Shown: one piece after another, positions 10,831 to 62,840 of the stretch
Layout: every line of letters begins with the position of its first letter
How positions within the stretch are numbered: the stretch's first letter is position 1
Assembly (NCBI GenBank): GCA_029582155.1
Contig: CM055903.1
Location: 42,113,769 to 42,177,768 of the forward strand
Length of the DNA stretch: 64,000 nt
Reading direction: 5' to 3'
DNA from: Panopea generosa
Taxonomy: Eukaryota; Mollusca; Bivalvia; Adapedonta; Hiatellidae
Translations under genes and position numbers: made by a program
Notes under the pieces: model-generated
Databases searched by the model: none
What the model was told of the DNA's origin: nothing
Seen by the model: the letters and a program-made list of their open reading frames with translations, nothing else

Positions 10831-10928
10831 TTACTCCATGTTCGAACCTAGACTGAGTCTGAAGGTGAGTGTAAGGGGAGTTGTAGGGTCTGCAACATAC
10901 AGCTCCTGCCCTGTTGACAGTCCTAGCT
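10831..10928 (-). CDS. UBA3: UBA3 terminal coding exon 16
   Basis: 98 nt encoding [20 protein letters not shown], then [12 protein letters not shown] and a TAA stop at 10833-10831. Human UBA3 ends [20 protein letters not shown] and FKLHF, so the protein is complete here with a slightly longer tail. Confidence 0.94.
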
Positions 10929-13900
10929 CTGAAATACATACAATATATAATATATACTTAGTATTACATACAATATAATTACTGGTATACACACCTTTAT
11001 TGTATTTATTTTATTTGAATGTAGATATATATTATTTTAACACATGACAGTTTTTTTTTGCATACTTTTTTAATTAAGAAGACCCAAGGAGCAAGTATAT
11101 GATTTGATTTACAGAATCTGAGTAGAACCATGATTTATTGTAATTGCCAATATTTCTAACTTAAATTCTCTGGATGGATTACCAGCAACAAAAAGTAAGT
11201 GATCTTGAGACAGCGCCCTTAAGCCACACAGGACAAGATTGTATTTCGAAATATCCATTCTGTTGTAGGACCATAAATCTTTTATAGGGCTATCATTCTG
11301 TTGTAGGACCAATCATTCTGTTGCAGGACCATAAATCATCCATAGGGCTATCATTCTGTTGTAGGACCGTAAATCGTTCATAGGGCTATCATTCTATTGT
11401 AGGATCAATCATTCTGTTGTAGGACCATAAATCTTTCATAGGGCTATCATTCTATTGTAGGAACATAAATCTTTCCTAGGGCAATCATTCTGTTGTAGGA
11501 CCAATCATTCTGTTGTAGGACCAATCATTCTGTTGTAGGAACATAAATCTTTCATAGGGCTATCATTCTGTTGTAGGACCATAAATCTTTCATAGGGCTA
11601 TCATTCTGTTGTAGGACCAATCATTCTGTTGTAGGACCATAAATCTTCCATAGGGCTAATATTCTGTTGTAGGACCATAAATCTTCCATAGGGCTATCCT
11701 TCTGTTGTAGGATCAATCATTCTGTTGTAGGACCATAAATCTTCCATAGGGCTATCATTCTGTTGTAGGATCAATCATTCTGTTGTAGCCCATAAATCTT
11801 TCATAGGGCTATCATTCTTTTGTAGGAACATAAATCTTTCCTAGGGCAATCATTCTGTTGTAGGACCAATCATTCTGTTGTAGGACCATAAATCTTTCAT
11901 AGGGCTAATATTCTGTTGTAGGACCATAAATCTTCCATAGGGCTAATATTCTGTTGTAGGATCAATCCTTCTGTTGTAGGAATATAAATCTTTCATAGGG
12001 CTATCATTCTGTTGTAGGATCAATCCTTCTGTTGTAGGAATATAAATCTTTCATAGGGCTATCATTCTGTTGTAGGACCATAAATCTTCCATAGGGCTAT
12101 CATTCTGTTGTAGGACCATAAATCTTCCATAGGGCTAATATTCTGTTGTAGGACCATAAATCTTCCATAGGGCTATCCTTCTGTTGTAGGAATATAAATC
12201 TTCCATAGGGCTATCATTCTGTTGTAGGACCATAAATCTTCCATAGGGTTAATATTCTGTTGTAGGACCATAAATCTTTCATAGGGCTATCATTCTGTTG
12301 TAGGACCATAACTCTTTCATAGGGCTATCATTATCTTATAGGACCATAATCCTGTCAAAAACAATTAGAAACGACAAGGCTATAAGATATACACAAGAGG
12401 ACTTTATACGGCCTATTTCTAGCAAATGTTGTAGAAGTCTGATAAGGATCAAGGAAACATTTATATAGACTGTGTTTTAAAAAAGATGGCCCCTAACACA
12501 CTCATCAGATTGCAGAAAAGCACTTTCAACAACAGTAAAATCTGCCATATTGGATTTTTAGTGGTGGTAGGAAAAATAAATCTGAGAGTGCACTACAAAA
12601 ATTAAAAAGTAATTGTCATTTTTATGCATTTCCCTAGATAACTCGAGGCTTACACACTAAATATTTAAGAAGATGAAAAACACATAGTTTTGACCCAAAG
12701 AACTTTTCAGCATTGAATAAAGGATTTTCAGACAAGATCCTGTTTAAAATATTCTTTATTAAAGTAATTTTTACAAACAGTTGCCATATTGAATTTTTGT
12801 CAGCAACAAAAATAATATTTGACAGTTCTGCATCCTAGTAATGTTGTTAAATAAAGTTTTGTTAAAATTGGTAAAATGGTTCAGAGTAGTTGTGATTTAA
12901 ACATTTCCCTATATAGCTCATAGGAAACTTCATGACCCTGTGGCAACCATCTTGAACATTTTATGATAAAAAAATCAAACTTAAAAAATGTTGTCTCAAC
13001 ACTTATACAAATGAATTCTAATCAACATTTAATATGTTTTTTAAGAGGTGATATTGTTTGAAATGTTCTCAATTTTAGTTATTTTTTAGCAATGGTAGCC
13101 ATATTTGATTTCAGACAGGAACCAAAAATGTGTCCATATGACTCGGATGCCCAAGCCACATATTTAAGTAATAAATTTTACCAAAAATTAAGTCGGACAG
13201 GGGAAATCTATCCTGCAAAATTAGATCGATGCTGACAAATTTCAAACTTGATTTGTATTTTATAATTATAAAGCTTCAACCATCAATTGCATACATACAT
13301 CCTTCCAGAAATTATTCTTTAGAAACCACTTTGACGAATGAATGGATGGTAAGAGAGAGGTAATACTTCATACCACTTAACCATTCTCCGAATGGCGAGA
13401 ACAATATTTTTTCTAAAAATGCACAATATCATGACCAAGTTTTATGAAAATAAGGGCCATGATTTTAGAAACAAGTCAGTTATCAATTAATGGTGTGAGA
13501 CAACCCATCTAAAGGAATAATAACTTAACTATCTAGGCCTGGAACAAGGGTAAAATATGCGGAAGTAGACATCATGCCAACTGATACAATGTATTACCAC
13601 ATTTTGTCAAGGTGCAACGAAAGGTTTAGGAAGAGTATTTCAGACATGGCCAGCTGGACGTCTGTATGGACTAGGTGTACCTGGTCTAATTGTCATTAGA
13701 TTAGGTCATTATTATAAAGAAAAAGACAGTTGAAAAATTAACTTGTCGACTCCTTTATGCTATCAATTTTTCTGACACATGTGATGAAAATAGACAAAAG
13801 AAACACAAAAATAAACAAAAGAACCTCTCTATAAGTACTGTAAGGCAGCACTATATGCTTCCATCCCATACGCTTAATTTTGAGGGCATAAAAAACTAAG

Positions 13901-16900
13901 CATACATGGGCAAATAACTTATGAAATACACATACACTTTAACGAACATATGGATTCCACTAATGTAACACTACATATGCCTTCCGTATACAATGTTATT
14001 GATTTTGACCTACCTCCAAGTGTTTTCTTTAGATTTTCTCGCGTCTTCTCTTCAATCGACTTCACTGTCTGCATGTACAATGTCTTATTTTTACCATTTA
14101 CTGATGTAGTTAGACCTGGAGATTTCATTTGACTGAAATAAAAATCATGTGATGATCATGTGACAGGTGATGATCATATGACAATCATGTGATCAGTTAT
14201 TACGACATCCTGTTGTTAGTCATTAGTTACTAACTAATACTAATCAGGGTTGGATTTCACAAAATATTGCCATAAGTCAATTTTACAATTTCCTTGTTGT
14301 ATGTTCAAATTTTGATTGATGTTTAAGGAGAGTATATCAGGGAAAAAAATGCTAGGTAGTTTATAACATACTGTAGTTTGTCATTATGTACTTACTAGTC
14401 AGGACTCTCCACTAGGTAGTTTATAACATACTGTAGTTTGTCATTATGTACTTACTAGTCAGGACTCTCCACCAGGAAGTTTTTAACATCCTGTAGTTTG
14501 TCATTATGTACTTACTAGTCAGGACTCTCCACCAGGTAGTTTATAACATCTTGTATTTTGTCATTATGTACTTACTAGTCAGGACTCTCCACCAGGTAGT
14601 TTATAACATCCTGCAGTTTTTCATTATGTACTTACTAGTCAGAACTCTCCACCAGGTAGTTTATAACATCCTGCAGTTTGTCATTATTTACTTACTAGTC
14701 AGGACTTTCCACGAGGTAGTTTATAACATCCTGTAGTTTGTCAGATTCAGAAAATGTCACATTCTTAGGTATCTTGCTACAGGCCATGCAATCCTCCTGA
14801 AAATAAACAAACACCTTCGTGTGCTTCATTTACAAACACTACTAAAAATTAAATAGAGTTTAAAATAATCATTTTTGTCAGCTTGACTGCAATTAGATTC
14901 ACCGATATACTATAGTCAAAGATATCAGAAGCAGCCAGTCAAGGGGTAAAGTAAAACTGTCTTTTTAAGACAGGTTGTTGCTACATACAGGATAATGGGA
15001 AATAGCAAATGTGGCTGCTTAAGACAAATAACTGCTCAATAGAGGTGACCAGTTACACCAGTTACTGTATCATACTTGTGACAGTCAGTGTAAACAATAC
15101 CAAATACCAATAAATGTATGTGAAATCCAGAATGAAAAATGTCAAATTCCAAGCATGTGCCTAAATATGTATAATAATGCTCATCTTCTATATCAAATAT
15201 GAACAAATTGTGGCTATTCTGAGCTCTTTAAAGAAAGATTATTTTTGTAAATTTTTAAGTTTCACATTTTTAATACACCTCCCGTCTCCTAATGACTTCA
15301 GAGCCTCACCATTTGAACAAATTTCTATATCTCCCTGACACGACAATGCTTCTGATAAAATTTGAAGAACAAAATCCACTGGGTAAATTAACAGAATATG
15401 AGAAGAGAAACTCATCATCCTCGAGATGTTCTGTACCAAATTAGAACACATTTGGCTGTTATGGATTATTGAAACAATTTTTTATTTTTTTTAAATCCTC
15501 AAATTTAACACTTTTGATACTTCATAGTCTCATGATTTTAACAAATCTCTGACCCAAAAATTGAAACATTAAATGTAATTGGCACTTTAATAAAATATAT
15601 ATATATATTTTTTTTAATGCAGTTTAATGCCTTTTCAACACATTTCAGGTTATATATGGAATAACCAGTTTAACTGGTGGAGGGAGACCTCAGAATCAAT
15701 CTTGAGTAGAACCACCGTCCTTCTGCAAGTAACTGGTAAACTTTCACACACAAATTTAGGAGCGAGCGGGACTCAAACCTATGACCTTAGCAGTGACAAG
15801 TAAGTAATCTTGAGATGGCGCCTTAGACCAGGGAGGACCCCTCAGACAACAGAAAGACAGACACACATAATAACCAGAACAACTTTTGAGCATTTGACTC
15901 AGGTGAACAAAAAATACACATAACTCATAATAAACCCATATTACAATTTATGGTCCTCCGTGGCTGAGTGGTCAAAGACGCCGTCTCAAGATCACTTACC
16001 TCTCACCGCTAAGGTCGCAGGTTCAAGTCCCACTCTCTCTAAAAAAACTTTATGTGAGAAAGTTTCCAGTTACTTGCAGAAGGATGGTGGTTCTATTCAG
16101 TCTGAGGTCTTCCTCCACCAGGAAAACTGGAAATGCCATATGTAACCTGAAATGTGTTGAAAATGGCGTTAAACCCCATTAAAAAAAATAATAAAAAAAA
16201 CCTTCAATTAAATATAGTGTGGGGCTGCAAATAATGATGCACTAGCTATTACAACAGCTCTTTTGTTCTTTGAATAGTCAAGCTAAATATTGTTTAGAAA
16301 TAATGCATAGCATTGCTTTCATTATCTGATATACCTTTCTTTCTGCCTCAAATGTATAGGTGTATATCCCCTCGGTGTCATTAAAGTTCATGTAGTTATT
16401 TAATGGTAAACAGCAGCTGAAAATAAAATAAATATAAATTGTCAATCTACTGCAAACAAAAAAATAAACAGAAACAACTTTTTCTAGAGGTACTAAATCA
16501 TAAATCTTCCGTAAGCTAGCAAATACATGCATGTTATATTTTGTCAACTGAGCAAATGTAAGTGGGGCGGTAACAGCTATTGTAATAGATAGAGTGTTGG
16601 CCACTCACACCTCGATCCCCAGCTCAATCACGATGCCTCTCATAAAACAACACTCAGTTCTGGATCTACCCAGGAAGTGGACTCAGGAGCAGTCAATAAA
16701 GGCTCTGAGCTTTCATCGCAATTGAGCTTAAATAAATTAATATAGAGCTCAAATAAATTAATATAAACTAAATGTGAAAGAATAAAATAAATGGTATCTT
16801 TATTTTGGTAAGAGTATTTAAACAATCCTTTTAATGACCAGTACATAAAAACTGAAATGGGAATAATTCACTGATTCATATCTTCTGTTTTAACTGAAAA

Positions 16901-19900
16901 CAATGAAAATTACTGATCCAAAACATAATACAGTATGTAACTGATTAATTACATTTTTTATTTGTTGTGTTGAAAATGTATAGCAGTCACAAAATCATAG
17001 ATATTTTATTTTTCATATTTGATTTTTAATGATAATGGTACAAATGAATTAAAATAACGACTCAATGTGGCATAGTTTGATGTTATTGCAAATGTTTGAT
17101 ACGTTTATACTACAAATGAATCGAAAAAAAGACTCAATATAGGAAAGACGGTCTGTATGCTGGAATTTCAATTGTAACTAACCTTGTAGCGAGTTTGAAT
17201 ACCTCCGTGGCACAGGCAGCTGAAATGGAGTGTTAACATTTTAGGAATACAATCCATATTTCCCAGTATGTAAGTAACTATGTAAGTAACTATGTAAGTA
17301 ACTCTATGTAAGTCACTATGTAAGTAACTCTATGTAAGTAACTATGTAAGTAATTATGTAAGTAAACAGTTAAGCGTAATCCATTTTTCGCAGTATGTAA
17401 GTAACTATATAAGTAACCAGTTAAGCATAATCCATATTTCCCAGTATATAATATATATAATCTACATGTATGTAAGTAACCATTCAAGCTCAATCCATAA
17501 TCCCAGTATGTAATTATGTAAGTAAACATTCAAGCTCAACCCTTAATCCCAGTATGTAATTATGTAAGTAACCATTCAAGCTCAATCCATAATCCCAGTA
17601 TGTAATTATGTAAGTAACCATTCAAGCTCAATCCATAATCCGAGTATGTAATTATGTAAGTAACCATTCAATCTCAACCCATAATCCCAGTATGTAATTA
17701 TGTAAGTAACCATTCAAGCTCAACCCATAATCCCAGCATAAAACTATGTAAGTAACCATTCAAGCTCAATCCATAATCCCAGCATATAACTATGTAAGTA
17801 ACCAGTCAAGCTCAATCAATAATCCCAGCATATAACTATGTAAGTAACCATTCAAGCTCAATCCATAATCCCAGCATATAACTATGTAAGTAACCAGTCA
17901 AGCTCAATCCATAATCCCAGTATATAACTATGTAAGTAACCATTCAAGCTCAATCCATAATCCCAGTATTTAACTATGTATGTAACTATTCAAGCTCAAC
18001 CCATAATCCCAGTATGTAATTATGTAAGTAACCATTCAAGCAAATTCCATAATCCCAGTATATAATATGTAAGAAACCATTCAAACTCAATCCATAACCC
18101 CAGTATATAACTAAGTATGTAATTAACCATTCAAGTTCAATCCATAACCCCAGTATATAACTAAGTATGTAACTATTCAAGCTCAATCCATAATCCCAGT
18201 ATATAACTATGTATGTAACTATTCAACCTCAATCCATAATCCCAATATATAATATGTAAGTAACCGTTCAAGCTCAATCCATAACCCTATTTTATAACTA
18301 TGTATGTAACTATTCAAGCTCAATCCATAACCCCAGTATATAATATGTAAGTAACCAGTCAAGCTCAATCCATAATCCAAGTATATAACTATGTATGTAA
18401 CTATTAAAGCTCAACCCATAATCCAAGTGGATAACTATGTAAGTAACCATTCATGCTCAATCCATAATCCCAGTATATGATTAAGTATGTAACTATTCAA
18501 GCTCAATCCATAATCCCAGTATATGACTATGTATGTAACTATTCAAGCTCAATCCATAATCCCAGTATATAATATGTAAGTAACCATTCATGCTCAATCC
18601 ATAATCCAAGTATATAACTAAGTAAGTAACCGTTCAAGCTCAATCCATAACCCCAGTATATAATATGTAAGTAACCAGTAAAGCTCAATCCATAATCCCA
18701 GTATATAACTATGTATGGAACTATTTAAGCTCAATCCATAATCCCAGTATATAATATGTAAGTAACCAGTCAAGCTCAATCCATAATCCCAGTATATAAC
18801 TTTGTATGTAACTATTCAAGCTCAATCCGTAACAACAGTATATAATATGTAAGTAACCATTCATGCTCAATCCATAATCCCAGTATATAATAATTATGTA
18901 AGTAACCAGTCAAGCTCAATCCATAATCCCAGTATATAACTATGTATGTAACTATTCAAGCTCAATCCAAAACCCCAGTATATAATATGTAAGTAACCAG
19001 TCAAGCTCAATCCATAATCCCAGTATATAACTATGTATGTAACTATTCAAGCTCAATCCATAATCCCAGTATATAATATGTAAGTAACCAGTCAAGCTCA
19101 ATCCATAATCCCAGTATATAACTATGTATTGTAACTATTCAACCTCAATCCATAACCCCAGTATATAATATGTAAGTAACCATTCATGCTCAATCCATAA
19201 TCCCAGTATATAATATGTAAGTAACCATTCAAGCTCAATCCATAATCCCAGTATATAACTATGTATTAACTAAGTAACCATTCATGCTCAACCCATAATC
19301 CAAGTATATAACTAAGTAAGTAACCATTCAACCTCAATCTATAATTCCAGTATATAACTTTGTAAGTAACTATACAAGCTCAATCCATTATCCCAGTATA
19401 TAACTATGTAAGTAATCATTCAAGCTCAATCCATAATTCCAGTATATAACAATGTAAGTAACCATTCAAGCTCAATCCATAATCCAAGTATATAACTATG
19501 TATGTAACTATTCAAGCTCAATCCATAACCCCAGTATATAATATGTAAGTAACCAGTAAAGCTCAATCCATAATCCCAGTATATAACTATGTATGTAACT
19601 ATTCAAGCTCAATCCATAATCTCAGTATATAATATGTAAGTAACCAGTCAAGCTCAATCCATAATCCCAGTATATAACTATGTATGTAACTATTCAAGCT
19701 CAATCCATAACCCCAGTATATAATATGTAAGTAACCATTCATGCTCAATTCATAATCCCAGTATATAATAATTATGTAAGTAACCAGTCAAGCTCAATCC
19801 ATAATCCCAGTATATAACTATGTATGTAACTATTCAAGCTCAATCCATAACCCTATTTTATAACTATGTATGTAACTATTCAAGCTCAATCCATAACCCC

Positions 19901-22900
19901 AGTATATAATATGTAAGTAACCAGTCAACCTCAATCCATAATTCCAGTATATAACTATGTATGTAACTATTCAAGCTCAATCCATAATCCCAGTATATAA
20001 TATGTAAGTAACCAGTCAAGCTCAATCCTTAATCCCAGTATATAACTATGTATGTAACTATTCAAGCTCAATCCATAACCCCAGTATATAATATGTAAGT
20101 AACCATTCATGCTCAATCCATAATTCCAGTATATAATATGTAAGTAACCATTCAAGCTCAATCCATAATCCCAGTATATAACTAAGTAAGTAACCATTTA
20201 AGCTCAATCCATAATCCCAGTATATAACTATGTAAGTAACCATTCATGCTCAACCCATAATCCAAGTATATAACTAAGTAAGTAACCATTCAACCTCAAT
20301 CCATAATTCCAGTATATAACTATGTAAGTAACCATTCAAGCTCAATCCATTATCCCAGTATATAACTATGTAAGTAACCATTCAACCTCAATCCATAATT
20401 CCAGTATATAACAATGTAAGTAAGCATTCAAGCTCAATCCATAATCCCAGTATATAACTAAGTAAGTAACCATTCAAGTACAATCCATAATCCCAGTACA
20501 TGTATATAAGTAAAATTAAAGAAACTAAATTAACAGATTCTGTGGTAAAATTAGTATTTTAGCATCAGAGCTTTTCTTACATTATAGAAACTTAAATGTA
20601 CAATTTTATATGTATTAAAACTTTATTCTTAATAAGAATGAAGAGCTGCAGTCAATCCAGACTTCCAAATTTACTTTTAATATCAAAATATATGCCATTA
20701 AGTTAACAAACCATTTCATAGTTTGTGTTAAAAACCAAAACTTAGTAAAGAGCTGCAGTCAATTTCCAACCAATTCCTGATTGTCAAATTTAGTTTATCA
20801 AAATAAAGTCAAACTTTGTGAGTTGTCACCTGTATTTAACAACACCTTGTCTTAAACAGCCACATTTTCTTTTTACCATTTTTATAATTTTATTTATAAT
20901 TAACCTGTATTAAGCAACTATCTGCCATAAGGGCTCATATTTGCTTTTATTCTACAGTGGCTGCTTAAGACAGGTTTGGCTGTATATGCAATATCGTTAA
21001 CAAACCTGCAATGACAGCATTAGTAGAGGCTACCGCTGGGATAATTCTCTTCACCACTCCTGAAACAGACAGAAAATATGAATCTTAATACAGAAATAAT
21101 GTTAATTAAAATTATCTTCAGGTCTCAAAATAGTTGAATTTTGCCATAATTATGTCCTATATAAAATCCAAATGGAAAAGTTTTTTAAGTATTTTATTTT
21201 TCACAACAGAAATCCATTTGCTTATAAAAAATCACAATAACTGATGGGTTGACCAGCTTGTTTTTGAAGGACAGTGCAGTGTTTTTAATTGATTGATTGA
21301 TTGAATATTTAGCATCATTTTAATGCCATCGTAGGCTAACAGATGATCAGTTAAGCTAACCACTGTTTCCTGGGATTAACCAGCACTCTAGCACACCCCG
21401 TCTCTGCAAGTAACTGATAACTTTCCCACTTGAATCAGTGGTGAGAGACAAATGATAATGAGACACAATGTCATATATCAATCATCACGGAGACTGTTAC
21501 TGGACGGGGGATTCGAACTCACAACCCCTTGATTGATAGTCAGATGCGTAACCGACTGAGCTAATCGGGCCCGACTAAGTGTTTTTAAAAACATGCTCTA
21601 ACATACATCCATCTGTTAAATCCTATAAAGTTCCACAGATAATGTCCCATCCCACATGTGGGACTTCCCATATCTATGGCCGTGATATTTATAATGCGGC
21701 TTCATCTATATCGTAATCCAATTCTTTCCCGGGAACCGTAATGTATCGAGACCACAGCGTGTTTGTTTATATAAAGTTTCATAAAAAAATTCCAATTATT
21801 TCATAAAAAAGAGTCATTGCAATATTTTCTAGATTTTACTCTGGTCAATATGAAATATGTGCTATTTTTATCTGCACTAAATGACATTTACATAATTATA
21901 ATATTTAAAGTATAATTAAAGAGGCCTTACCTACATCACCGATATTTTTTCAATCTTAGCAGTAAAACTGCACATTTATATCGAACATCATATAATATGA
22001 GTTTTCTTATATTATATTTTGTCTCTGTAGTGTAAAATTCTTTAATTTTGTTGACCAAATACTAAATCGCAGCCTGTGACAAAGTCACTCATCGGCCAGT
22101 ATCGATTTTTGCTAAAACATTAAAGAATGAAATAAAAAATGTCAGCCTGTATATTAAAGAATTTCTCTTTAATAAGAAAAAATACAAGGACGAATCAACC
22201 ATTATCTTTGAATCTGACCTTTCTCTTTGTGATTCAATAAACTTTCCATCATTTACTGAACAGAAAGTTATTGGTAATGCAACTTTTAAGTTTAAGACAA
22301 CATTAATGGGGTCTAATGCCATTTAACACATTAAAGGTTATAAATATTGAATCCTGTTTTTTTTTGTAAAGGAAGGCCTCTGAAGAATCTGAGCAGATTT
22401 CCGTCCTTACACAACTAAGAGACCCTTATTATCAAAGCTATTCTTAGGCAGTTACCTACGTTTTGTAAAAGTGAAACTATAAATATGTCTGTCGACACGA
22501 ATATCACCACTTGTGATCAGAAACCAAGTTTTTACCGACAATTAACTTGAAAAGGTGCCATAACTCACAAATATTGACTGATTGGAAACCAATTTTTTAC
22601 TGGACCCACCGACGGACCATCGTCGGATACCCACGCGTAATCCATTTTGATACTCTCTGTTTATCACCTTTAGGATATTACACTAGCTTTGTGTCATTTC
22701 TATCAAGTCACAATGCAGTGATATGGTTCCTTCACGATTTCATGAAGGGAACGCAATCCAATCGCAACGCTAGTTTAATGCAAACGCTGTTTTGATAAGC
22801 ATTAATGTTAGCTGTATTTTTTTCTGTTCTGTTCAAATAAAACGACACAGATCTAGTGTAATTTCCCATGGGTGATGGATGGAGAGTATCAGAATTGAGA

Positions 22901-25900
22901 CCTGTGGGTATCAGACGATGCGGACGGACAAGCTAATACTTAATGCCCCTTCACCATTACTTGAAAGGCGGGGCAATAAAAAAGGCTTATTATCATTTTA
23001 TGGACTGAAACATGAAAATCACAAATGCAAACATTAACAGAACAATATGTAAAATTTCAATCATTTCATTTTTGCCATTCAAACTGATGAAGTGTCGTTT
23101 TTATTTATTGCTGGTATTAAAAAAATGAGAAGGTAAAAATGTTACCTTGTGTTAATCTGTATGTTATGCCTGTGATATTGAACTCCTCAGCTCTCTCCAA
23201 TGATTTATCAAGGATCCATTTTATATGGATTGGACTGTCTCCGTCTATGGCCACACCCTCTAACAAATGGTAAAATGAACTTTAAAATAGGTTTGTTTGT
23301 ATGTTTATGCCATTGAGGGCTAACAGAAGATCTGATAACCTGACCATTCCCGAGTTCATAGGTCAACTATAGATCTCGAGCACATCCATCTACGCAAGTA
23401 ACAAAAAAATTTCCCACTTAATCAACAGAGTAATGAATGACTATGAGACACAATGCTGTACAGTCAAACTTCAGTTAGTGGTCACCTTTATTAAGCAACC
23501 ACTTGTCTTAAACAGCCACATTTTCTTTTTAACATGTTTATAATTTTAGATTTAATCAATCTGTATTAGGCAGCCACCTGCCTTAAGGAGTCCTTTTTGC
23601 TCTTTACTTTGAGCGGCTGCTTAAATCAGGTTTGACTGTATATCGATTATCACTGAGGCGATTGGACTCGAACTCATGACTCCTGGATTGATAGACACAC
23701 TACCAACTGAGCTAACTGGGCCCGGCTCTTTAAAGAACATTATCAATTAAAGGCAGTGTGTTTTTAATTCAATAATCATGAATAAAATGAATCATGAAGT
23801 TTGTTGACAATGATTCTTTTGTTTTAAATGTTAACTGTAACTGATGCACATTAAAGTTACCTCCAAATGGTTCCTCTTTAGGCCACAGTAATATTCTGAC
23901 ATACTCTATACAGTGTTCTGGCAATCTTGGCGTATGGGCTATAGTACACAGCGGAAAGTTCACCTGCAACAAAATCACATACATATATCTCATATATGTC
24001 AAATGTTGACTAAACTGAAATGTTATTTCATATGTTATCAAAAAACGTTTCGACGATGAACACGGATGACCGAAATACAACGTATAGCTTGAACCACTTA
24101 CCTGGTCCTGGTCGAATTCCTATTTCAATGTACAATGTATATACATGTAGTTTTACACTTGTATGTACATGTTGAACAATACTTGGCTTAAACAACCCTT
24201 AACTTGAACTATTTTGTCCAGTCCCATCAGGTTCGAGCAATCAAATTTAGGCCACCAACCCATAAGTCAAATACACACAAATATCATTATAATACAACAC
24301 TGTGCCAAAAGGATAATGACAATACTAGGAATAGAAAAGAGAAAAAATTAACAAAGGAATTAACAAACATTGCGTGTCTAAATCGTTATATAAACCTGGC
24401 ATTTACAAGTGTTACTTGAATCCTATAAATGGTGTAGCATACTCATATTTTAGTTTGTGTCAGCTTGGACTTAAATAAAATATTTCCGTTTGTTGAATAT
24501 TTCTAGTAAAGTTTTATCAACAAATTAGCCTTTGTGTACGCACTGATTTATAGAACAGATTTAATCCATTATGATTAACATTCAAAAATTTGGATAAATA
24601 CTGATTATGTAAATTATTATAATAAGCACATTTATTATTTTAATTATAACATGAAATCCGTCCAGAGTTTAAAAAATGCATATTCTTTGTTTATATATGA
24701 TATTGTTATGCCTTCCGGTTTCAACTAAAATGACAATACATTCCAGGTATGTTTTTTGGTCGATGGACCTTATAATGGATTCTGATGAAAGTATTAATTC
24801 AAATTTTTATACCAGCCCAGTACATAAGACTTACATAGTCAAACGGAGGATGAAGCGCATGGTCCAGTGGGATTGGAGGGTTCTGGGTTCGATCTCCCAC
24901 CATGGCTACGTGTGGCGTTCTTGAGCAAAACACTTTATCAGAATATGCCTAGTACTGGTTCTACTAATGAAGACTTCGAAAGCGATTTGTCTAAGTTGTA
25001 AGAACTTGTTTTACAATCGATGTGAAATAAATAAGTTTGAATTAATGGTTCTGATGATTTGTAAATTGATAATTCGTTAAAAGAAACTATAGAATTGTCA
25101 AGTGAGACTTGGATCTTGGATCTTTTATCAGATATTAGTGGAAGCAACTTATAAATATATTCTTAAAAAAAAAAAAAAAGAAGAAAATTCTTCTTTTGAC
25201 TCAAGTGACCTTGACCATTGAGTGACATATCCCCTATGCCAAATTTTTGGAAATGAGTTATAAAAAAAATTTTAAGACTTGAACATTTTCTTTGTTTGAC
25301 TCAAGTGACCTTGACCTTTGAGTGGCATATCCCATATGCCAAATTCAGCTTTTAGCTTTCAATTCAATTGTGGAAAATGTACACAAAGACCAGTCATCAA
25401 ATAGCCCGCAGTTTTGTCACAATATACATGATTTGGCTAACAGTCAATGTTTAATTAAACCCCCTTAGACTGTAGGACCAGGTCAGCTCTCCTACTTGGG
25501 TCCATTACAATGAGATTTCAGCTTGCTGATTATTCAGTTGTTTCAGGGAAAGATTTATGACGTGTTCAATAGTAATGAATTGTGGAGAAGGCATAGAATT
25601 CCCTTCTTTTTTATTTGGGTTCAACAGACCTGATTCGGGAGATATCAGGGATTGGGATAGACTAAAACCATTGTCTTTTTCAATGGTCCAAAGACAAGAC
25701 ACACAAGTTTCTTACAGAAATTCAGTATATTAATGGTTATTAACTACCTGAGGTGGGTATAGATCCAGGGTACATTCTACACACGGTGACATGCCCGGTA
25801 ATATGACTCGGGCATTACCCTTGAACCCCTCCGTGCCACCATCTACCATTGGAATGAGGCTGCTCTGATCCAGTTCTTCGTCTTCGTATTGAAGCATACT

Positions 25901-28900
25901 TACCTAGAAATGTACAAAATCTCAAGTAAGTGTGGGATAAATTAGTTTCATCATGGTTACAGCATTATAATTGTGCATCTTTTTATAAAAATTGTCTATT
26001 AACAAAAAGTCTATGGTATGTCAAATATTTATCATAGAAAAACAAATGGTTAAAATATATACTGGTTTATTCAATTTTTTATGCCAGCTGATTATTTTCC
26101 TGGATATATAGTTATTCCCACCATCTTGAAGTGAAAGCGTAGAGGAGAAAGAATCAGCTAGTCAATTTTCTCTTTTCAGATGTAAAAAATAGTCGGGAAG
26201 GAATCTGTTAGCCTAATTCTTTATCCCCTGGGGTGAGGGGGTGGGCAATAAAGCCAAAATAAAGGGTTAGAAGGAGTTTTAAGACAATCTCAAATATAGA
26301 GGGAGAGGGTTGGACAAGGTGACAAACTATACCCCATATATCCCTCTGTAAGGTCAAAATATAGATGTCAGATCAGCCAGGCCAATTTTACCTTAATCAA
26401 ATGTCAAAATATAGTCATTTCTAACCCTCTTTAAAAGTCAAAATATAGGGAAAGGAAAACAAAGTTAATTAATTCTTCCACCCAACCAGAAAATCAAAAT
26501 AAAGATATCAGCCAGGTGAAGAAAGAATAAGCTAGCTAATTTCTTCCCTGTACAAAGAATTAGAAGGGGCGGGGGAAGAGAAATTGGCTGTTACATCTAT
26601 TCACTTTACATCTATAAAGCATTCATTTAGTTATCTTATGAATTACTTCTAAGATTTCAGTTTCAGTGCATACCTAACTTCAGTCAAGATGTTTCGCCAG
26701 ATTTTTATGTGATAAATAAATGCATTTCACTTTGAACAACATTCAACAACATTTTACATTGGTATCAGCCTACAGCCTACAAAAGTCACCTTCTTGTGAT
26801 ACAAAAATGCTGAACCAATTTCCAGACATAACGTACAAACACTCAAAACAATAACAGAAAGTCTCTTATCAATTTTAGAAATGGTATATTATTGACAAAT
26901 TATGAAACCCAGGTACACTGAATAATATAATTGTACATAATAAAGCCATACCAGCATCCCATTAATCCATCGTCTAGCAACGATTGAATCTAACCCACAC
27001 ACAACAATATGAAAATCTGAAATAAACATAAAATTATTATCTTATAATTCAGCAAAAATACCAGTGTTCAGTAGATGGTAACAAGATGCTTCTTACAAGC
27101 AGTCAAGATGTTCTAATTCTGCTGTCAAGATTAAGTTTAAACAACAAAAAAGGAAATTTAGAAATATAACTAACTCCAACACCCAGACCTTGTAGTTATT
27201 TCCCAGCAGTCAAGTCAAAGGTTTTTCAAACACACTCTCACAGTGCCTTATTCAGGCAAAGTGCTGTTAAAGCATGCTATACCCCATCTGAAGGAGATGT
27301 TAAGCTGTAAGTTCAGTGTGCAGAGAGAGCCTCCACTCTCTACAGATGTTTAACATCTCATTAAGCAGGACTTAAGTGTAGTGGATAGAATGCTGGACGC
27401 TCCTGCCAGAGGTAAAGGGTTCGATCCCCAGCTCGACCTGATGCCTATAAAAAAAACTACACTCAAGCAGTTCATATTAGCTTGAAGTTTTCTTCACAAT
27501 CAAGCTAAAATAAATTAGTATAAACCAAGGACTAGAAATGCGTCCATTGGACACAGATGCCCCCACTTTGTAACTACATTGTAGATGGCAGCTATCGCAA
27601 ATTTAAGCAAGCTTGACTATCGAAAGAGGACAGAAACTGTCAGCCAATCAGAGTCCAGATCACCTAATTAAAATGTGCCGATTCCGTCCATTGTTGAACT
27701 TGACCCGAGTCTCGTTGATACAAAGCCAAATATAAATTTTCATCCATAAATAATCGGTCCATAAATAAAGACTTTAGAGGTCGGAAACTATCAGCCAATC
27801 AGTGCCCAGAACACCTAATTAATAGGCAGAGATTTTGATGGAAATCGAACTTGAGCTGTAGTTTATCACCATACATCTTTCTACCAAATATGAATCAAAT
27901 CCATCCAATCCTTCAAGAGATATTGAGCAGAAACCAATTTCTTGACATTTGTCAATAATCTATGTCCAAAAAGGGCCATAACTCCATCAAAAATCATCAG
28001 ACCGGAACGAAATACTAACTTGACCTGTATTACCTGAATGTGAAGTCACACACACCAAATGTGGCTTAAATCTGTTCATTTAAACTAAAGATATAAGTCA
28101 GAAACCATTTTCGTACGTATGGGACATTACGTATGAACAGCTTTGATACTATATGCCCCCCGCCCATTGAAAATGGCAGGGGCATAAAAAGCAACTGATT
28201 GAGATGTTACAAATGCTCGTGTATTCACACAATATCTCGAGAAATCTTGTTTTCCAATATTCTTACTTCCATTCATCTCAGAAATACAAATCAAAATTTA
28301 TTCTTTGCACAATAAAATTTGCTGCAAAACGTGACTATTCCCCGCGAATTGTTGAAGTATTTATAATAACATGTATAAACTTTGTATACTGCAACTAAAA
28401 AATCAAGTAAGGTACTTGGAATTTTACATCAAACTGCATCATCTTAAATCCAATATTATCAAAGCCTGTAAATTAATCATATAACACCTAAGGTATACAT
28501 ACACCTTAAATTTTATGTAAAAGAAATCAGCTGCCTGTGAAATTTGAATATTTAATTTGCAAAGTTAATTATTCTTTTCATGTTGTTTTATCAACATTTA
28601 TTATAGAGATGCAATTTTCCCATCCTTCTATAAAAATCCATGTATAAACTAAGGTCTTATCAACATTTAAATTCTATGCCAATCAGAGATTTAAATGCCA
28701 ATTAACCTTCCCAAGAAACAAGACAAAGGGAAATAATAAGTTTATTAAATCATTAATTGGAAAACCAATGTTGTAACCATATAATTTACAACTGTATGGA
28801 AAACACATGTACATGATACAAAGTGTAATGTATACCATTTATATGTAACAAGTGTGAAGTTATCTTTTAAACTTCAAGTTACAAATGAAACAAATTTAAA

Positions 28901-31900
28901 ACATTATATAAATTTAAAATTAAATTATTAATTGGAAGCTGGGCCCAATTAGCTCAGTTGGTTACGCGTCTGACTATCAATCAAGGAGTTGCGAGTTTGA
29001 ATCCCCCTCCCGGCCACAGTCTCCATAATGATTGATATACGACATTGTGTCTCATTATCATTTGTCTCTCACCACTGATTCAAGTGGGAAATTTATCAGT
29101 TACTTGTGAGACAAAGTGTGCTCGAGAACTGGTTAATCCCAGGAAACAGTGGTTAGGTTAACAGATCATCTATTAGCCCTCGAAGGCTTAAACATGATGC
29201 TAAATATTGAATCAATCAACCAATCAATTTACTGGAAAACCAACATTGTATTCATATAATTTACAACTGTATGGAAAACACATGTACATGATACAAAGTA
29301 CAATGTATAACATTTATATGAAGCAAGCGTAAAGTTCAAGTTACAAATGAAACAAATTTAAAATATTATATAAATTTAATATTAAATTACTTTTGTAAAA
29401 TGACTCATCAAAATCTTGAATCTTGGCATAATGACTGAGACTGTTAAGGAAAATATACCATATTGATCCAGGTATTTTTCCAAAAATTTAATAAATTTCC
29501 GTTGAAGTAAACATTCCTATGTCTGGTACCACAATTAAATATACACATCACAGAGGGACATCAGCCTGAGGTTTAGATAGGAATTTATGCTAAGAGATAC
29601 CTGTGGTGATGGGAACCACTCTTTTTCTTGCATACCAAACACAATGATTAATTATTTTAAATTTATTCATTGTTCTTCTTATTTTTTTTACTTCGATTGC
29701 TTTAAGATATTAAATATTTATATTATTTATATAACATATATTTTGTGTGTGACATCAAAGTGCAAGGAAGACAGGAAAGGCGGTGGGAGGGGTGTGTGTA
29801 CTCAGCAGTTTCCGTACTTGGTAAAAAAAAATGGGAAATTCATGGTATACAAGAAAATGTCAAGTTTCTAATTCTCATGAATAGTGGTGGAGTGTAAAAC
29901 AATTTCTTAACTCCTCAACAGATAAAGATATACATGTGTCATTTGCAGTTTTGTGGTGCTTTAAAAGTATACAATAACTGGTACCATTATTGATTATTTA
30001 TCCGAACACAATCTTAAAAGTAGATTTTTAAGAGTTGAAGAATGTGTTTTCTGAACGATTTTCTTATTTCATTTTTATTCAACCTTTATAATGCTTAATA
30101 AACCTGTGTGGTTCCAGGTAAGAATAGAATCACTGTCGATTTCTTTAGAGGGGTAGGAATCCTCCGAATGGGTGTCATGTTCATTTTATCTTTCATGTCA
30201 TGTTCATTATTGCAGTTAAATTACCAACCTCTGTGTGGTTCCAGGGAGCCATACGAGTGATGGCAAGAATCAGATAACTGTGGCGCATGCATGTCGTAAC
30301 CAGCAACAATTTGAGTAATATGACAGATTTTGCTGAAACTCAAGATTCTACGTTCATTCTGCATAATATTATTCATTTGTTGATGTGCTTTTTTTAATCT
30401 GTATGTTAATTTGATGTTTTTGTACATGTAGAATGAACCTGGAATCTTCTTATTAGCGTCCAATAACCTACAATGTGTTGGTATGCCATAAAACCCCTTT
30501 CATTCTATAATGCTTGGTAACTGTTGATGAGGTATAAAACACTAAATATTCAGAGAATTTATAAAAAAAAACACTAGTCTGTCAGCATATATTTTCTCTG
30601 CTACATGTCAGTATTCTTCAAATTATGATTGTCAGAAAGGTTGTACTGCTTTATCAGCATGGCAAAATAACAGTTGCAAATATATACAGAATAATAATTA
30701 AATTACTGGTAATGAACATTTTTCTCTTTAGTTCTTTCAAATTGAAATTAAATCAGAATAATTATTAACAATATACAAAGTACAAAGTATATAACTTTAT
30801 GGTTTTGGGCTATACATTATTCAACGCATAAAAAACCCTGGACCTATATATTAAAGAATTTTGAAAAGAAAAATGGTTTTGAACTAAAAAATATGGTCGA
30901 AAACTGAAAGAAACAGTGATTTTAGAAGCTCTGATATAAAATACAACTGGACAAAATAAAAGAAATGTAGAAACAGGTATTATCAACTGATCAAAGTTTA
31001 TTCAAGGATACGGTGTAACATTTGTTCCTGGAATTCTTTTATTGATGAAGTCTGCCGCCACCTCTGCTTTGGCTCGCCCAACATCTGTCGATCTGAAAGT
31101 TGGAAATAAATTCATGTTACAGCATATAGGGCAGGAAAAATTACTGCCACAAGATACAAGATGTTTTATTGAGTATATGACAGCCTCTGGCCAAAAATAC
31201 AGCAATAATAATTGTTAATGACTGATGTTTTACCAAGACATCAAAATAGTAAAATCATGCAGATTGGAATAGTTAGAAATCTGCCTATTTCCATTCTATT
31301 TCTGTACCAGAACCAATTATTGTTCATTAATTCATTTTGGAATACCAGTAATGGGTTAATGGGTTTTACTTTTAGACTAAAGTGACTGCTTATACGGGTT
31401 TAACTGTATATCTATAAAACATTTTCTAGCAGATATTTAAATCCACTTTGATTGATTGATTGAATATTAACCTAACCACTGTTTCCTGGCTGGGATCCTG
31501 AAAGATTAACCAGTACTCGAGCACATCCGCAAGTAACTGATAACTTTCCAACTTGAATCAGAGGTGAGATGAATAATAGTAATGGGACATAATGCCGTAT
31601 ATCAATCATCACTGAGACTGTTGCCAAGCGGGGATTCGAAATCACGACCCCTGGATTGATAGTCAGACGCTTTACCAACTGAGCTTAATGGGCCACTTTG
31701 AAAGTCTTCTTTAATCAAGTTCCCATGATACTGTAACTAACAATATAAAAGCAATCCATGTTTCCATCCTACTAGAAAAACCTGCATAATAAAAATTGTT
31801 GAGCAATTAATATTTGAATGGTTAATTACAACAATACTGCCACAATTGGAAAATTCACATGTGACATATCTTTTATTATTATTTTTAAAGCATGATTACC

Positions 31901-32244
31901 ATATAGTTATCAAGTTAACAACCCACCTGAACAAGAACTGCCTGTTGAGGTTTGAAATGTCTATGGTGTCCATATCTATTATGTCGATGTTCTTAAAACC
32001 AAGTAATGCCTGAAAAGTCAGAAAACACTTCAATTTACACAAACAGTTGATACATCCAATCGCCTTATGTATTTAAGGTTGTGATTTTTTTTCGTTCAAA
32101 AGCTTCCTTTGTTGAGGTTTATATGAAACTAACATGCAGAACATGAACTTTAATAATAATGATTAAAAAATCATTATTACCTTAGAAATTTTATCTGAAA
32201 TTCTGATGGTTATGAACAATCAATATACAAAAGGGCACTACAAG

Positions 32245-32277
<33 letters not shown>

Positions 32278-35200
32278 GTCTTTATTTAAAGAGGAAACAC
32301 AGTTGGAATAATCACTTATCTTCCCTGAGGTCCTCTATTATATACATGGTAACAAAGTAATAACAAAATATATACAACAATGTATCTATTGAACATTTGT
32401 TTTTAACAGGAAAAAATAAAAAATCTGCACACATTGCTGTGGATTAGACAAACAAATGTCATTTCATCTTGACTCATGTAATAGATACATTTTTGTTTCT
32501 GATTTGAGTAATAATGAATACATGTGACAGCTATCGACCAATGATAATTGATGTCACGTATTCATGTACCATTAGGTGTTCTCATAGTTATAAGTCATAG
32601 CAAAAAATGACATAATAAGTCACCAAATGATTTATTAATACTAACTTATTTTAACTTGATTACAAAGAAAGCTCAGAACGCATAATTATGAACCACTCTT
32701 GGTCCACTTCCTGAATGAAACCAGTACTGAGTGTTCTTTTTCTTTAACCCTTTACTTCATATACACGCCTTTGGACACCTCTAATATAGACGCCATTGGA
32801 CACCTAATATAGAAGGCTTTTGAATTAATGGGTGAATTATGTTTATATTAACTGACAGAGTGAATAATAGTGCAGGAAGTGTACAAATTGCTCATTACAA
32901 ACTCTTTCTGCACTGTTTTCAAAGGCCTTCTGTGATTGGTGCGGGAACACACGTAAAGGGTTAAAGGCCATCAGGTTGAGCTGGGGATCACGTTGGCAAC
33001 CTCTAGCAAGAGCAGCCTACTCTTATCCTCTGCACTTCCACCCAGCTCTTAAAGCAAGTGATTAAACATAGAAAATGCAAGAATATCTTATGACTGGGAA
33101 GAGTAACTCGTTATGAAAATTATATTGAACAGGTATTAATATATCAATATATTACCATACTAAGCTTTCCACTGTTTACTGTTTTGCATATAGTGTATGA
33201 TTTTTTGTGCATCATTGTTTACAGATGTCTAAAATTATATTCAGTCTTAAACTTGGGAGTTAAAAATATTTATTTGTTCAAATCTTATTTTTCTATATAT
33301 ATATTTAATTGTATTGGAAACCTCGAGACACCGTTGTCTTTCTAGTGTAGTGAGAGTTTGAAAGAAGTAAAGTGTAAGCATTCATTTATCTAAGCTAAGA
33401 ATGACTCGAGTTACATAACCTAAGGAGTAAGTATTATAACTGTTGGATTCTACAATTTTCTTGAAAAGTTTTTTTTTCTGAGATTGTAATGTTTCACATT
33501 ATACTAAGACATGCTGGCATATTTCAGGATTCTGGTCACATAACTTACATGTTATCGAAATATCTGGGGCTGTTCTTAAAAAAATTGTTTGCTGACCTTC
33601 TAACTTAAAGTTGCAGCTACCCAAACTTTTTTATTAACTTTCAAAGCTGCTTTTTAAGCACTGAATTAATTTTTCTTTTCATGATTTCTGTCAATATTTG
33701 TTCAAAATGACAACCATAAATTATGTAAAATCAAAATATGGCATGACAAAACAAGAGGACCTGAACTCTACTTGCAACAGATGCTAACTGACTGTGAAAT
33801 ATCTAAGGTCTAGACCTTAAACTTTCAGAGAAATTTTTTTTTAAAATTATACTTAAAATGTGCTTAAAAACCCTGTCGCGAGGGCATTTGTGGCCGAATC
33901 ACGCTGGCGCAAATGTCGTCCTAGATATTGTAGTTATAACTGCTATGCAAGTTTGTTTAAGATTCAATGAAAAATGAAGGTACTATCGTGTCTACAACAT
34001 TTTCGCTATATAACTCTTTGTAAAACAGTTACCCCTGTGGTGCCCCAAATTTGACCTCAGCGACCCGACTTCAACAAATCTTTAAGAGGACCCCCATGCA
34101 ATGCTACATGTAAAATATCTAAGGTCTAAGGTCTATGCCTTGAATTTTCCGAGAAAATGTTTTTTAAAATTTCGCTTAAAATGTGCTGATTAGCCCTATG
34201 GTGGGGGCATTTGTGGTCGATTAACACTGGTTCAAGAACTTGTCTGAGATCTAATGGTTATATAATTGCTGTGCAAGTTTGGTTAAGGTTCAATGAAAAA
34301 TGAAGGTACTATCGCCTCTACAAGAAAAAGGTTAACAGACAGATGACGGACAATTTACCATGACATAAGCTCTGCTGGTCTTTGGCTAGTAGAGCTAAAA
34401 ATAAGTTACCTTAATTAACTAACCCACATGAAAACTACTGGGTCAGAGCACAATAAAGGATGGCCTGATTGCCATTTTGTGCATTCTGGTATGAATTCCA
34501 TTTATATCAATGCAATAGAGGTTAATCAGACAGGCAGGATAATTACTGTCCCGATTCTCTGAGGTTCCTTTCACCTTGAGAGTACAATAAAACCCTCTGC
34601 AATACATCAAGAGTGACTTGAATAAGCATTGCACATATAGCTTGTATGTTAAAGACATTTAAATTCTTGATATTGGCTGTATCATAATTATACTATACTG
34701 AATTACCAGATCTTTTAACAGCTCACATCCTAGTCCTCCAGCACCAATTATCAACAGTTTGCAAACATCTTGTAGGAATGATATTGTCTAAAATAAGAAA
34801 TAAAATACATTTATTAAGAATGGTATTTTAAGTGTCAACTGCACACACTAAAGTTTCACAGAAAGTGTGCCCATGGCATAGAAGCCATGTTTACTGAAAT
34901 AATTATCATTTTGATTTTATACAGTCATTTCAAACAGAAATCATGAAAAGAAATCATCACTTTGAAAGTTACTGGTAATATAAAAGTTTGGGTAACTGCA
35001 ATTTTGAGTGTCAGAGTAGGTAGGAGCACGGCAAACAGATATTTTTTTAAGGGAGGCCTGATTTATGTAATATTTTTGTACTTCAAGAGCATATTACTCG
35101 CAAAATAACATTTACCTTATCACAATAAATTTTGGATTAGACAGAAGATGAAAGTGCTATTGTGATGAAAAGTCCAAACTGAACAATTCAGGGGCCACAA

Positions 35201-56701: not shown

Positions 56702-57352
56702 TCATTTCTTTTTCTTCGGAGTTTTATCCTCATCATTGTCTTCATTATTTTCTTTTGACTTACAGAACCACAACTTTTTGGATTTCTTCGGGTTGTCATG
56801 GGCAGTAGGAACCATTTCCTTAAAACGTTTCACATCACACCTGGACAGCATATCTGCTGCAATGTTGTCAATCCTAGGCACATATATGCCAACCAAAGTA
56901 ATGTTGTTGTCGTAACATATTTGCGATAATAACATATACAGACTATGATACGGACCTTTCTGTTTCTGTCGCTTGGTGTTGCTGATTGCGTATAACCCAT
57001 TATTCACTAAATTTATTGAATGTTTGCAGTCAGAATAACACAAAACCTTTTTATTGCTAAATTTATGTCTCCATGTATAACATGCAGTTACTAAGGCATA
57101 AAATTCCCCTGCAGTACTATGTAACTTTGGATCGAATCCAAGTTTATCTTTGACCCATGGATCAGAAATCCAACGAATCTTTTCATCATCTTTTGTCAGA
57201 AGGTACGCACCCATACCAATTTTAGATGAGTCGACAAAGATCTCAAAGTCCGGATTACAAATACTGCGTTGCTCATATGGAATATCATATCTTTCCAAAC
57301 TGATCAGTATGCCCTTGTTCAGATTGTTACGGGCATCCAGGTAACCCAGACT
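56702..57352 (-). mobile_element. RNase H-like segment of a DIRS-type (tyrosine-recombinase) retroelement, partial
   Basis: One open stretch of about 217 codons ends in a Lys-rich tail. It resembles the RNase H region of DIRS-like retroelements: EIFVDSSKIGMGAYLL near the start, AGEFYALVTACYTW, CYSDCKHSINLVNNG, and VPRIDNIAADMLSR. It is read as a fossil piece; the rest of the element is not seen in the window. Its upstream edge coincides with a good splice acceptor (TTTGTTTCAG), so it may be the last exon of a spliced, retroelement-derived gene that begins outside. Age cannot be judged from one copy. Confidence 0.6.
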
Positions 57353-57725
57353 CTGAAACAAAACACACATCCTGTAATTTGTATATTACTTATATAGGTT
57401 ACATACTATTAGTTAGTTACATGCATATTTGCATACATAGAAACCAAGCTAGAGACATAGTTATGTGCATAGTAACATACTAGTTACTAGTTCCATGCAA
57501 TAACAAACAATATTACCTAGTACATAGTTACACATAGATGAAAACAGTAGCTGCATATATAGTTTTAGGTTGCATTTCACAAAAATTCTTACAATTAAAA
57601 CCAGTCATCAACGTAAGGTAAGAAAAATGCATAACATTTTTCATAGTCGTCCACATGAATTTAAGTCTTTTCAGAAAACATATGGCTTTTTTTTCAATAA
57701 AATTTGCTCTCATTTGGATTAATAT

Positions 57726-59659: not shown

Positions 59660-62600
59660 TTTAAATCTATAAAGTCAAACATCATTACATACATAGTTAT
59701 AGACATAGTCACAAGCACAGTTACATACATAGTTATAAACATAGTAACAAGCATAGTTACATACATAGTAACAAGCATAGTAACAGACATAGTAATATAC
59801 ATAGTAACATACATAGTTATAGATATAGTAACAAGCATAGTTACATATATAGTAACATTCATAGTAACATACATAGTTATAGATATAGAAACAAGCATAG
59901 TTACATATATAGTAACATTCATAGTTACTGTAATATACATAGTTATAGACATAGTAACAAGCATAGTTACAGACAAATTAATATACATAGTAACATTCAT
60001 AGTAACATACATAGTTATAGATATAGTAACAAGCATAGTTACAGACAAATTAACAATCATAGTAACATACATAGTAACAAGCAAAGTTACATACATAGTT
60101 ATAGACATACATGTAGCAATAAACATAGTTACAGATATAGTTACAGACATAGTAACATACATAGTTATAGACATAGTAACAAACAAAGTTACAGACATAG
60201 TTATAGACATAGTAACATTCATAGTAACATACATAGTTACAAGCATAGTTACAGATATAGTTATAGACAAATTAACATTCATAGTAACATTCATAGACAT
60301 AGTAACATGCATAGTAACAAACACAGTAACAAGGATAGTTACAGACATAGTTATAGAGCTAGAAACATTCATAGTAACATACATAGAAACAAGCAAAGTT
60401 ACAGACATAGTTATAGATAAAGTAACATTAATAGTTACATACATGATAGTTATAGACATAGTAACAAGCATACAATGAAGTTACAGACATAGTAACATTC
60501 ATAGTTACATACATAGTAACAAGCAAACTTAAATACATAGTTATAGACATAGTAACATGCATAGTAACAAACACAGTAACAAGGATAGTTACAGACATAG
60601 TTATAGAGCTAGAAACATTCATAGTAACATACATAGTAACAAGCAAAGTTACAGACATAGTTATAGATAAAGTTACATTCATAGTTACATACATGATAGT
60701 TATAGACATAGTAACAAGCATACAATGTAGTTACAGACATAGTAACATTCATAGTTACATACATAGTAACAAGCATAGTTACATACATAGGAACAATCAT
60801 AGTCACATACATAGTAACAAGCAAAGTTACATACATAGTTATAGACATAGTAACAAGCATAGTTACAAAGTAACAAGCAAAGTTTCATCCATAGTTATAG
60901 ACAAATTAACAAGCATAGTTACAGACATAGTAACAACAAAAGTTATATACAAAGTTATAGACATAGTAACATGCATAGTTACATACATAGTTTTAGACAT
61001 AGTAACACACATAGTTACATGCATAGTAACAACAAAAGTTATATACAAAGTTATAGACATAGTAACATGCATAGTTACATATATAGTTATAGACATAGTA
61101 ACACGCATAGTTACATACATAGTTATAGACATAGTAACAAGCATAGTTACAGACATAGTAACAACAAAAGTTATATACAAAGTTATAGACATAGTAACAT
61201 GCATAGTTACATACATAGTTATAGACATAGTAACACACATAGTTGCATACATAGTAACAACAAAAGTTATATACAAAGTTAAAGACATAGTAACATGCAT
61301 AGTTACATATATAGATATAGACATAGTAACATGCATAGTTACATACATAGTTATAGACATAGTAACACACATAGTTGCATACATAGTAACAACAAAAGTT
61401 ATATACAAAGTTATAGACATAGTAACATGCATAGTTACATATATAGTTATAGACATAGTAACATGCATAGTTACATACATAGTTATAGACATAGTAACAA
61501 GCATAGTTACAGACATAGTAACAACAAAAGTTATATACAAAGTTATAGACATAGTAACATGGATAGTTACATACATAGTTATAGACATAGTAACACACAT
61601 AGTTACATACATAGTAATAGACATAATAACAAGCATAGATAAATACATAGTTATAGACATAATAACAAGCATAGTTACATACATAGTTATAGACATAATA
61701 ACAAGCATAGTTACATACATAGTTACATACATAGTTATAAACATAGTAACAAGTATAGTTACATACATAGATATAGACAAAGTAACACGCATAGTTAAAT
61801 ACATAGTTATAAACATAGTAACAAGCATAGTTACATACATAGTTACATACATAGTTATAGACAAAGTAACAGGCTTAGTTAAATACATAGTTATAAACAT
61901 AGTAACAAGTATAGTTACATACATAGATATAGACAAAGTAACACGCATAGTTAAATACATAGTTATAAACATAGTAACAAGCATAGTTACATACATAGTT
62001 ATAAACATAGTAACAAGTATAGTTACATACATAGTTATAAACATAGTTACATGCATAGTTACATACATAGTTATAGACAAAGTAACAGGTTTAGTCAAAT
62101 ACATAATTATAAACAATGAAATAAGTATAGTTACATACATAGATATAGACAAAGTAACACACATAGTTAAATACATAGTAACAAGCATAGTTACATGCAT
62201 AGTTACATACATAGTTATAAACATAGTTACATGCATAGTTACATACATAGTTATAGACAAAGTAACAGGCTTAGTTAAATACATAATTATAAACAAAGAA
62301 ACAAGTATAGTTACATACATAGATATAGACAAAGTAACACACATAGTTAAATACATAGTAACAAGTAGTTACATACATAGTTATAGACAAAGTAACATCC
62401 ATAGTTAAATACATAGTAACACGCATAGTTTCATACAAAGTTATAGACAAAATAACAAGCATAGTTACATACATAGTTACATACATAGAAACACGCAAAG
62501 TTATATACATAGTTATAGACATAGTAACATACATTGTTACATACATAGTAAGTAACAATCATAGTTATAGAAATGGTAACAAGCATAATTACACACAAAG

Positions 62601-62840
62601 TTACAGACATAGTAACAGTCATAGTAACAGACTTAGTAACAGACATAGTGAAAATATACTTACAAACAAAGTAACAGACATAGTAACATACAAAGTTACA
62701 GATATAGTTACATACATAGTTACAAACATACTTACAGACATAGTTACAAACATAGTACAGACATAGTGAAAATATAATTAGAGACATAATAAAAGACATA
62801 GTTACAGACAGAGTTAATATATAGTAACAGACATAGTTAG
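59660..62840. repeat. 3.2 kb satellite of 12-bp units (AGTTACATACAT type) with higher-order blocks
   Basis: Units such as AGTTACATACAT, AGTTATAGACAT, AGTAACAAGCAT follow a 12-bp period. Since 12 is divisible by 3 and the consensus lacks stops in certain frames, long open frames arise on both strands (about 571 codons on plus at 60693-62408 and 497 on minus at 60863-62356). Higher-order units are visible: a 250-bp repeat (60301/60551) and 96/132-bp blocks marked by AACAACAAAAGTTATATAC (60931, 61027, 61159, 61255, 61387, 61519). Confidence 0.93.

Follow-up and report, generated by a model that had tools for sequence, protein, structure and literature searches.

The UBA3 gene of Panopea generosa carries a 60-bp tandem array that spans the border between coding exon 13 and the following intron, and presents six near-identical splice donors in a row, only the first of which keeps the reading frame. 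We consider it most probable (approximately 0.72) that a tandem duplication captured this exon edge, with the first donor staying in use and the remaining donors being mostly silent decoys. The array lies in a stretch of 64,000 nt (hereafter the window; positions given below are those of the window unless stated otherwise), which falls within contig C10 of the 1.47 Gb assembly (39 contigs) that was searched.

UBA3 gene model

With human UBA3 as a tblastn query, residues 33-463 were matched by exon blocks running from position 35872 down to 10843. These yield 15 coding exons separated by GT-AG introns, which together encode a 437-aa protein with no internal stop on the minus strand (coding span 10831..35881). 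The first ATG in the earliest exon matched is the presumed start codon, and the position of the stop codon was read from the sequence letters. Pfam analysis of the joined protein identified a ThiF domain (7.2e-54) and an E2_bind domain (1.6e-26; residues 347-431 of 437), and the piece around the array has the NEDD8-activating enzyme catalytic subunit as its top match among solved structures (phmmer E 1.7e-37). The assignment to UBA3 made in an earlier note on this DNA thus stands on both the domain content and the structure match. The E2_bind family has a single matching place in the whole 1.47-Gb assembly. UBA3 is considered essential in animals.

By homology, the exon that ends in the array is coding exon 13 of 15 (14696..14796, minus strand; 101 nt with the proximal donor), with its last 48 nt forming the first unit of the array. 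It had been numbered exon 14, a count that may hold if one upstream non-coding exon exists. Such an exon is possible because an acceptor-like AG precedes the start codon in the ATG exon. Coding exon 14 follows at 14014..14132 (minus strand; placed by homology and exon joining).

Tandem arrays occupy 4,613 of the 25,045 bases of the UBA3 span. Two of these are found in other introns: a 46-bp array of ~66 copies (17469-20498) in the intron that separates coding exons 10 and 11, with a consensus unit containing a plus-strand GTAAGT that is antisense to UBA3, and a 38/96-bp array (11256-12349) in the intron before the last exon. Elsewhere in the window, a 3-kb array of a 12-bp unit (59685-62839) has long open frames in several frames, and a 227-aa open frame on the minus strand (56702-57385) resembles, by eye, the RNase H portion of a retroelement.

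The array and its units

Tandem Repeats Finder (TRF) identified the array at 14354-14743 with a period of 60, 6.5 copies, 94% matches, 0% indels and a score of 682, and both this and the unit alignment confirm that ~6.5 copies of 60 bp cross the end of coding exon 13 and its donor. Six whole units are present in gene orientation (minus strand), the first beginning at 14743 and the others following every 60 nt. Each consists of 48 nt of exon and 12 nt of intron; a 47+13 division fits equally well, because one T can be placed on either side. The unit had previously been described as 47 nt, GTAAGT and 13 further bases. The 47/13 split is sound, whereas the literal sum is 66, so the 13 bases must include the donor.

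Compared pairwise, whole units are identical at 55 to 58 of 60 positions (2 to 5 differences, 3-8%). The partial seventh unit (14353..14383, minus strand), which ends before the donor, is identical to the sixth over 31/31 nt; this is either the most recent addition to the array or the place where an error in copy number is likeliest, the count coming from one assembly with a single matching locus. Further into the intron, a decayed unit segment (14205..14236, minus strand) retains 27 of 32 nt, with the donor now reading GTTAGT. The local score of this fossil segment is 39; the highest score among 500 shuffles is 28, and 574 other stretches of the window reach 27 at most. The repeat therefore probably once extended further, and loss of an extra donor can occur.

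A 120-nt dimer of the unit consensus found no match elsewhere in the 1.47-Gb assembly, using a search that skips very common words. With the UBA3 locus the sole match under that setting, membership of a dispersed satellite family was rejected. Relative to the unit consensus, the exon copy shows 2 synonymous codon changes and 0 replacements, while the five intron copies together carry 6 replacements and 4 synonymous changes (two units having one of the synonymous changes in common). This is the direction expected if the proximal copy alone is coding, with numbers too small for a test.

Six donors and their reading frames

Six aligned donors with a spacing of exactly 60 nt are confirmed: read on the minus strand, their GTAAGT hexamers begin at plus positions 14695, 14635, 14575, 14515, 14455 and 14395. 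The proximal donor (14690..14695) ends the 101-nt exon. Use of extra donors 2 (14630..14635), 3 (14570..14575), 4 (14510..14515), 5 (14450..14455) or 6 (14390..14395) would extend the exon to 161, 221, 281, 341 or 401 nt respectively. The upstream intron measures 1538 nt and the downstream intron 563, 503, 443, 383, 323 or 263 nt for donors 1-6.

Exon 13 ends in CCT GAC TA|GTAAGT, and splicing from the proximal donor to the TCAAATG of the next exon (14132) forms TAT, with the first T of exon 14 completing an in-frame Tyr codon. Read unspliced into the intron, the same exon continues TAG TAA. Donor 2 includes this in-frame TAG and would give a 365-aa product ending ESPD, for which E2_bind finds no match at E 0.001; donors 3 to 6 all lie beyond the same first TAG. 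Both claims made for the frames are thus upheld: the proximal donor alone keeps the frame, and any later donor leads to Ser-Pro-Asp followed by a stop, with loss of most of the E2-binding domain.

The six donors are nearly equal in predicted U1 pairing, with 8/11 matches each and energies of -7.2 kcal/mol for donor 1 and -7.0 kcal/mol for the other five. All five extra donor hexamers are intact, with 12 distinct differences from the consensus located elsewhere in the six whole units (hand count). The chance that 12 differences spare the 30 of 360 nt concerned is ~1 in 3 (by hand). Selection on the extra donors was therefore dropped as an argument: 12 differences are too few, and sparing of the five hexamers is often expected.

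Local folding was predicted in six window settings. At 37 C, five of these make the proximal donor ~10 to 21 times more open and one shows no difference; at 15 C the six ratios range from 2.8- to 156-fold. When the letters of the units were shuffled around a retained 15-nt donor block (single setting, 37 C), the median was 4-fold, and 14 of 100 controls reached the tested 21-fold ratio. Openness was accordingly rejected as specific support and is treated here as a general edge effect of any array. Folding of the whole array is little better than that of shuffles (z -1.59; 6 of 100 shuffles equally good).

Copied exon ends elsewhere in the genome

The earlier note considered a minisatellite across an exon-intron border in an essential E1 gene unusual, a view that needs qualification within this genome. 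We sampled 20 stretches of 10 kb at round coordinates (L006-L025), counting arrays with a period of at least 20, at least 2.5 copies and a score of at least 150. Arrays cover 37,711 of 200,000 bases (18.9%) in 46 merged arrays, and the 64-kb window contains 10 arrays with 15.7% cover. Around 26 proteasome exon matches, arrays cover 1,288 of 78,000 bases (1.65%) of the 1.5-kb flanks and 0 of 4,092 bases of the matches themselves. Arrays therefore look depleted near proteasome exons, the two samples being small and differently chosen.

The census of exon ends started from tables of matches for four families and covered all 26 of the proteasome (1.5-kb flanks), 2 of 47 for chaperonins (250-base flanks) and none of the 136 for kinases or 135 for helicases. 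Four pairs among the proteasome exons are 98-100% identical, leaving ~22 independent exons. The members of each pair (L031/L032, L036/L037, L042/L043 and L045/L047) lie on one chromosome, ~0.2 or 0.8 Mb apart, and represent either recent gene duplicates or unmerged haplotypes.

One clear case of a copied exon end and donor was found among the 26 proteasome exons, or 1 in 28 exons outside UBA3. The exon belongs to proteasome alpha type-3, PSMA3 (best match 7e-18), and its end and donor have been copied twice into the following intron with an ~80-bp period (L040:1500-1830; G000:C4:57782033-57782363). The copies show 82.7% and 86.5% identity with small indels; the donor is lost at 1707 (GGAAAG) and intact at 1785, and use of the latter would run into a stop. 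This stretch occurs once in the genome. As the PSMA3 copies are absent from the TRF output, TRF under-counts copies of exon ends.

No copied exon end was seen at the two chaperonin exons (250-base flanks) or at 14 of the 15 UBA3 blocks. Three further hits were not counted as cases: one of 19 nt with 15 inside the exon match (L051), one of 28 nt in the UBA3 intron next to block 29440, and, at L047, a weak hit of 27 nt obtained under relaxed settings only. UBA3 was the starting locus and so contributes to no frequency estimate. With one further case in 28 other exons, the capture of exon edges through tandem duplication is perhaps common enough here to count. The earlier description of the UBA3 array as unusual is thus tempered both by the abundance of arrays and by an event of the same kind at a PSMA3 exon.

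A much broader proposal can be framed, in which exon ends and their donors are captured time and again by tandem duplication in this minisatellite-rich genome, as at UBA3 and PSMA3. Many essential genes would then bear ladders of identical donors, variable in length from one individual to the next, that set a tunable share of poison-extended, decayed transcript. This would amount to copy-number-based variation in expression, with exon definition letting the ladders persist. We regard this proposal as decidedly improbable.

Origin of the array and choice between donors

We infer a tandem duplication of a 60-bp stretch that took in the last 48 nt of coding exon 13 and the first 12 nt of the intron. 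The copies would then have multiplied by slippage or unequal exchange in a minisatellite-rich genome, placing five further copies in the intron that follows exon 13. With both the coding sequence and a donor retained in the adjoining copy, the exon would have remained intact. In the cell, U1 would face six near-identical donors. Flanking introns exceed 250 nt for all six, and splice-site pairing across the exon is therefore expected; the first donor, which defines the shortest exon (101 nt), would be used almost always. Donors 2-6 would act as decoys, occasionally giving a poison extension that contains the TAG. Such a transcript would either be removed by nonsense-mediated decay or yield the 365-aa protein without the E2-binding domain.

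First-donor dominance at UBA3 is what we would expect by analogy with human-type systems, as opposed to this animal, described in Carranza 2022 (PMC9225289). That study places the change from intron to exon definition near 250 nt and finds that, of competing donors equal in strength, the upstream one is preferred in 60% of human events, particularly where the introns on either side exceed 250 nt. Five minigenes that combined identical strong donors with 365-nt introns were spliced exclusively from the upstream donor. Before the equal-strength filter, the same source reports a preference for the downstream donor in about 60% of events overall, and minigenes with larger exons skipped the exon when donors were weakened. 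It also summarises the older intron-proximity rule of Reed and Maniatis, whereby the donor nearest the acceptor, i.e. the most downstream, wins.

In strength, the UBA3 donors fall between the two test donors of that study, and the 263-nt intron of the last donor is close to the 250-nt switch, which counts against first-donor dominance. If the upstream preference for equal donors between introns over 250 nt applies here, the array would be nearly silent. The altered donor of the fossil unit and the one broken extra donor at PSMA3 fit decay without constraint.

The best-surviving alternative is that the array regulates UBA3, as the earlier note had proposed for donor choice or UBA3 level. A regulated share of transcripts would use donors 2-6 and decay, with array length setting the level of UBA3 and hence neddylation. 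All six donors are intact and near-equal, and downstream repeat units of human IFI6 are reported to act as donors (PMC4526556). Use of donor 2 would also put a stop in exon 13, ~60 nt ahead of the exon junction, and the later donors lie past the same TAG. The preference for pairing across the exon nevertheless favours the first donor, the hexamers show no conservation beyond what so few changes would lead one to expect, and the donor of the fossil unit has changed. A stop ~60 nt before an exon junction makes a decay substrate under the usual distance rule. By the best rule available, an analogy, the putative regulatory role would be less likely than a tolerated, almost silent array, and we consider regulated poison extension unlikely.

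The extra donors could also be useful without splicing, as intronic landing sites for U1 that protect the transcript from early polyadenylation (U1 telescripting provides such protection) or that aid donor 1 through U1 crowding. Five extra sites with U1 pairing nearly that of the real donor lie within 300 nt of the intron, in keeping with this possibility, which we nonetheless hold to be very unlikely.

Even less credence is given to the array being partly an assembly artefact, in which a shorter array was inflated or a longer one collapsed. The copy count could slip at the last unit, because the partial unit is identical to the one preceding it over 31/31 nt. Against this, the differences between whole units (2 to 5 of 60 bases) and the decayed unit beyond the array argue against assembly stutter, and the same kind of event is found in an unrelated gene, PSMA3. 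Finally, the classical cross-intron proximity rule (as summarised in PMC9225289) would favour a distal donor carrying the main splicing and make this UBA3 copy a hypomorph or null, which is the least probable reading of all given that E2_bind matches one place in the assembly only, the matched remainder of the gene is open over 437 aa and UBA3 is considered essential in animals.

Relation to known systems

A minisatellite in the human interferon-induced gene 6-16 (IFI6), reportedly described in 1995 by Turri as supplying several splice donors, is the nearest case in the literature; its unit is said to be 12 nt and to add a few in-frame residues. According to PMC4526556, two downstream repeat units act as donor sites, giving three mRNA species. 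The UBA3 array resembles this case in being a tandem array at an exon end with units that carry splice donors: it overlaps the 3' end of the exon together with its donor, and GTAAGT is intact in 6 of 6 whole units. It differs in having a 60-nt unit (48 nt of it coding) and in a later donor adding a stop. Moreover, use of later donors is reported for IFI6 and hypothetical for UBA3.

Tandem duplication is also a route to new introns, as described for a potato RdRp gene (PMC4974935) and for Drosophila (PMC2891723). As in UBA3, the duplicated segment brings splice signals with it, and in potato it crosses an intron-exon border. The potato duplication copied the acceptor side of an intron, whereas UBA3 copied the donor side several times. 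In Drosophila, coding sequence with a proto-splice site was copied, in contrast to UBA3, where the 15 exons join without a new intron. No new intron is needed at the array, since the coding exons join in frame across the old one. CTRCAG occurs in six of the seven units (the fourth being the exception), with a pyrimidine tract ahead of it in none, as judged by eye.

A further parallel lies in the same genome. At PSMA3, as at UBA3, an exon end and its donor were copied into the next intron and a later intact donor meets a stop; the PSMA3 event differs in its ~80-bp period with indels, its two further copies and its one lost donor. Literature searches that combined minisatellites and tandem repeats with exon-intron boundaries and splice donors matched no paper, and among the matches listed by broader searches none concerned a UBA3 array. 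The array is distinct from the known kind in its long unit, the captured coding sequence, the stop ahead of every later donor, its location in a housekeeping gene and the presence of a second example in the same genome.

Six near-identical, evenly spaced donors after one exon constitute a natural test of spliceosome choice, setting pairing across the exon against pairing across the intron. The choice made among the six donors of UBA3 is directly readable from RNA-seq of Panopea generosa.
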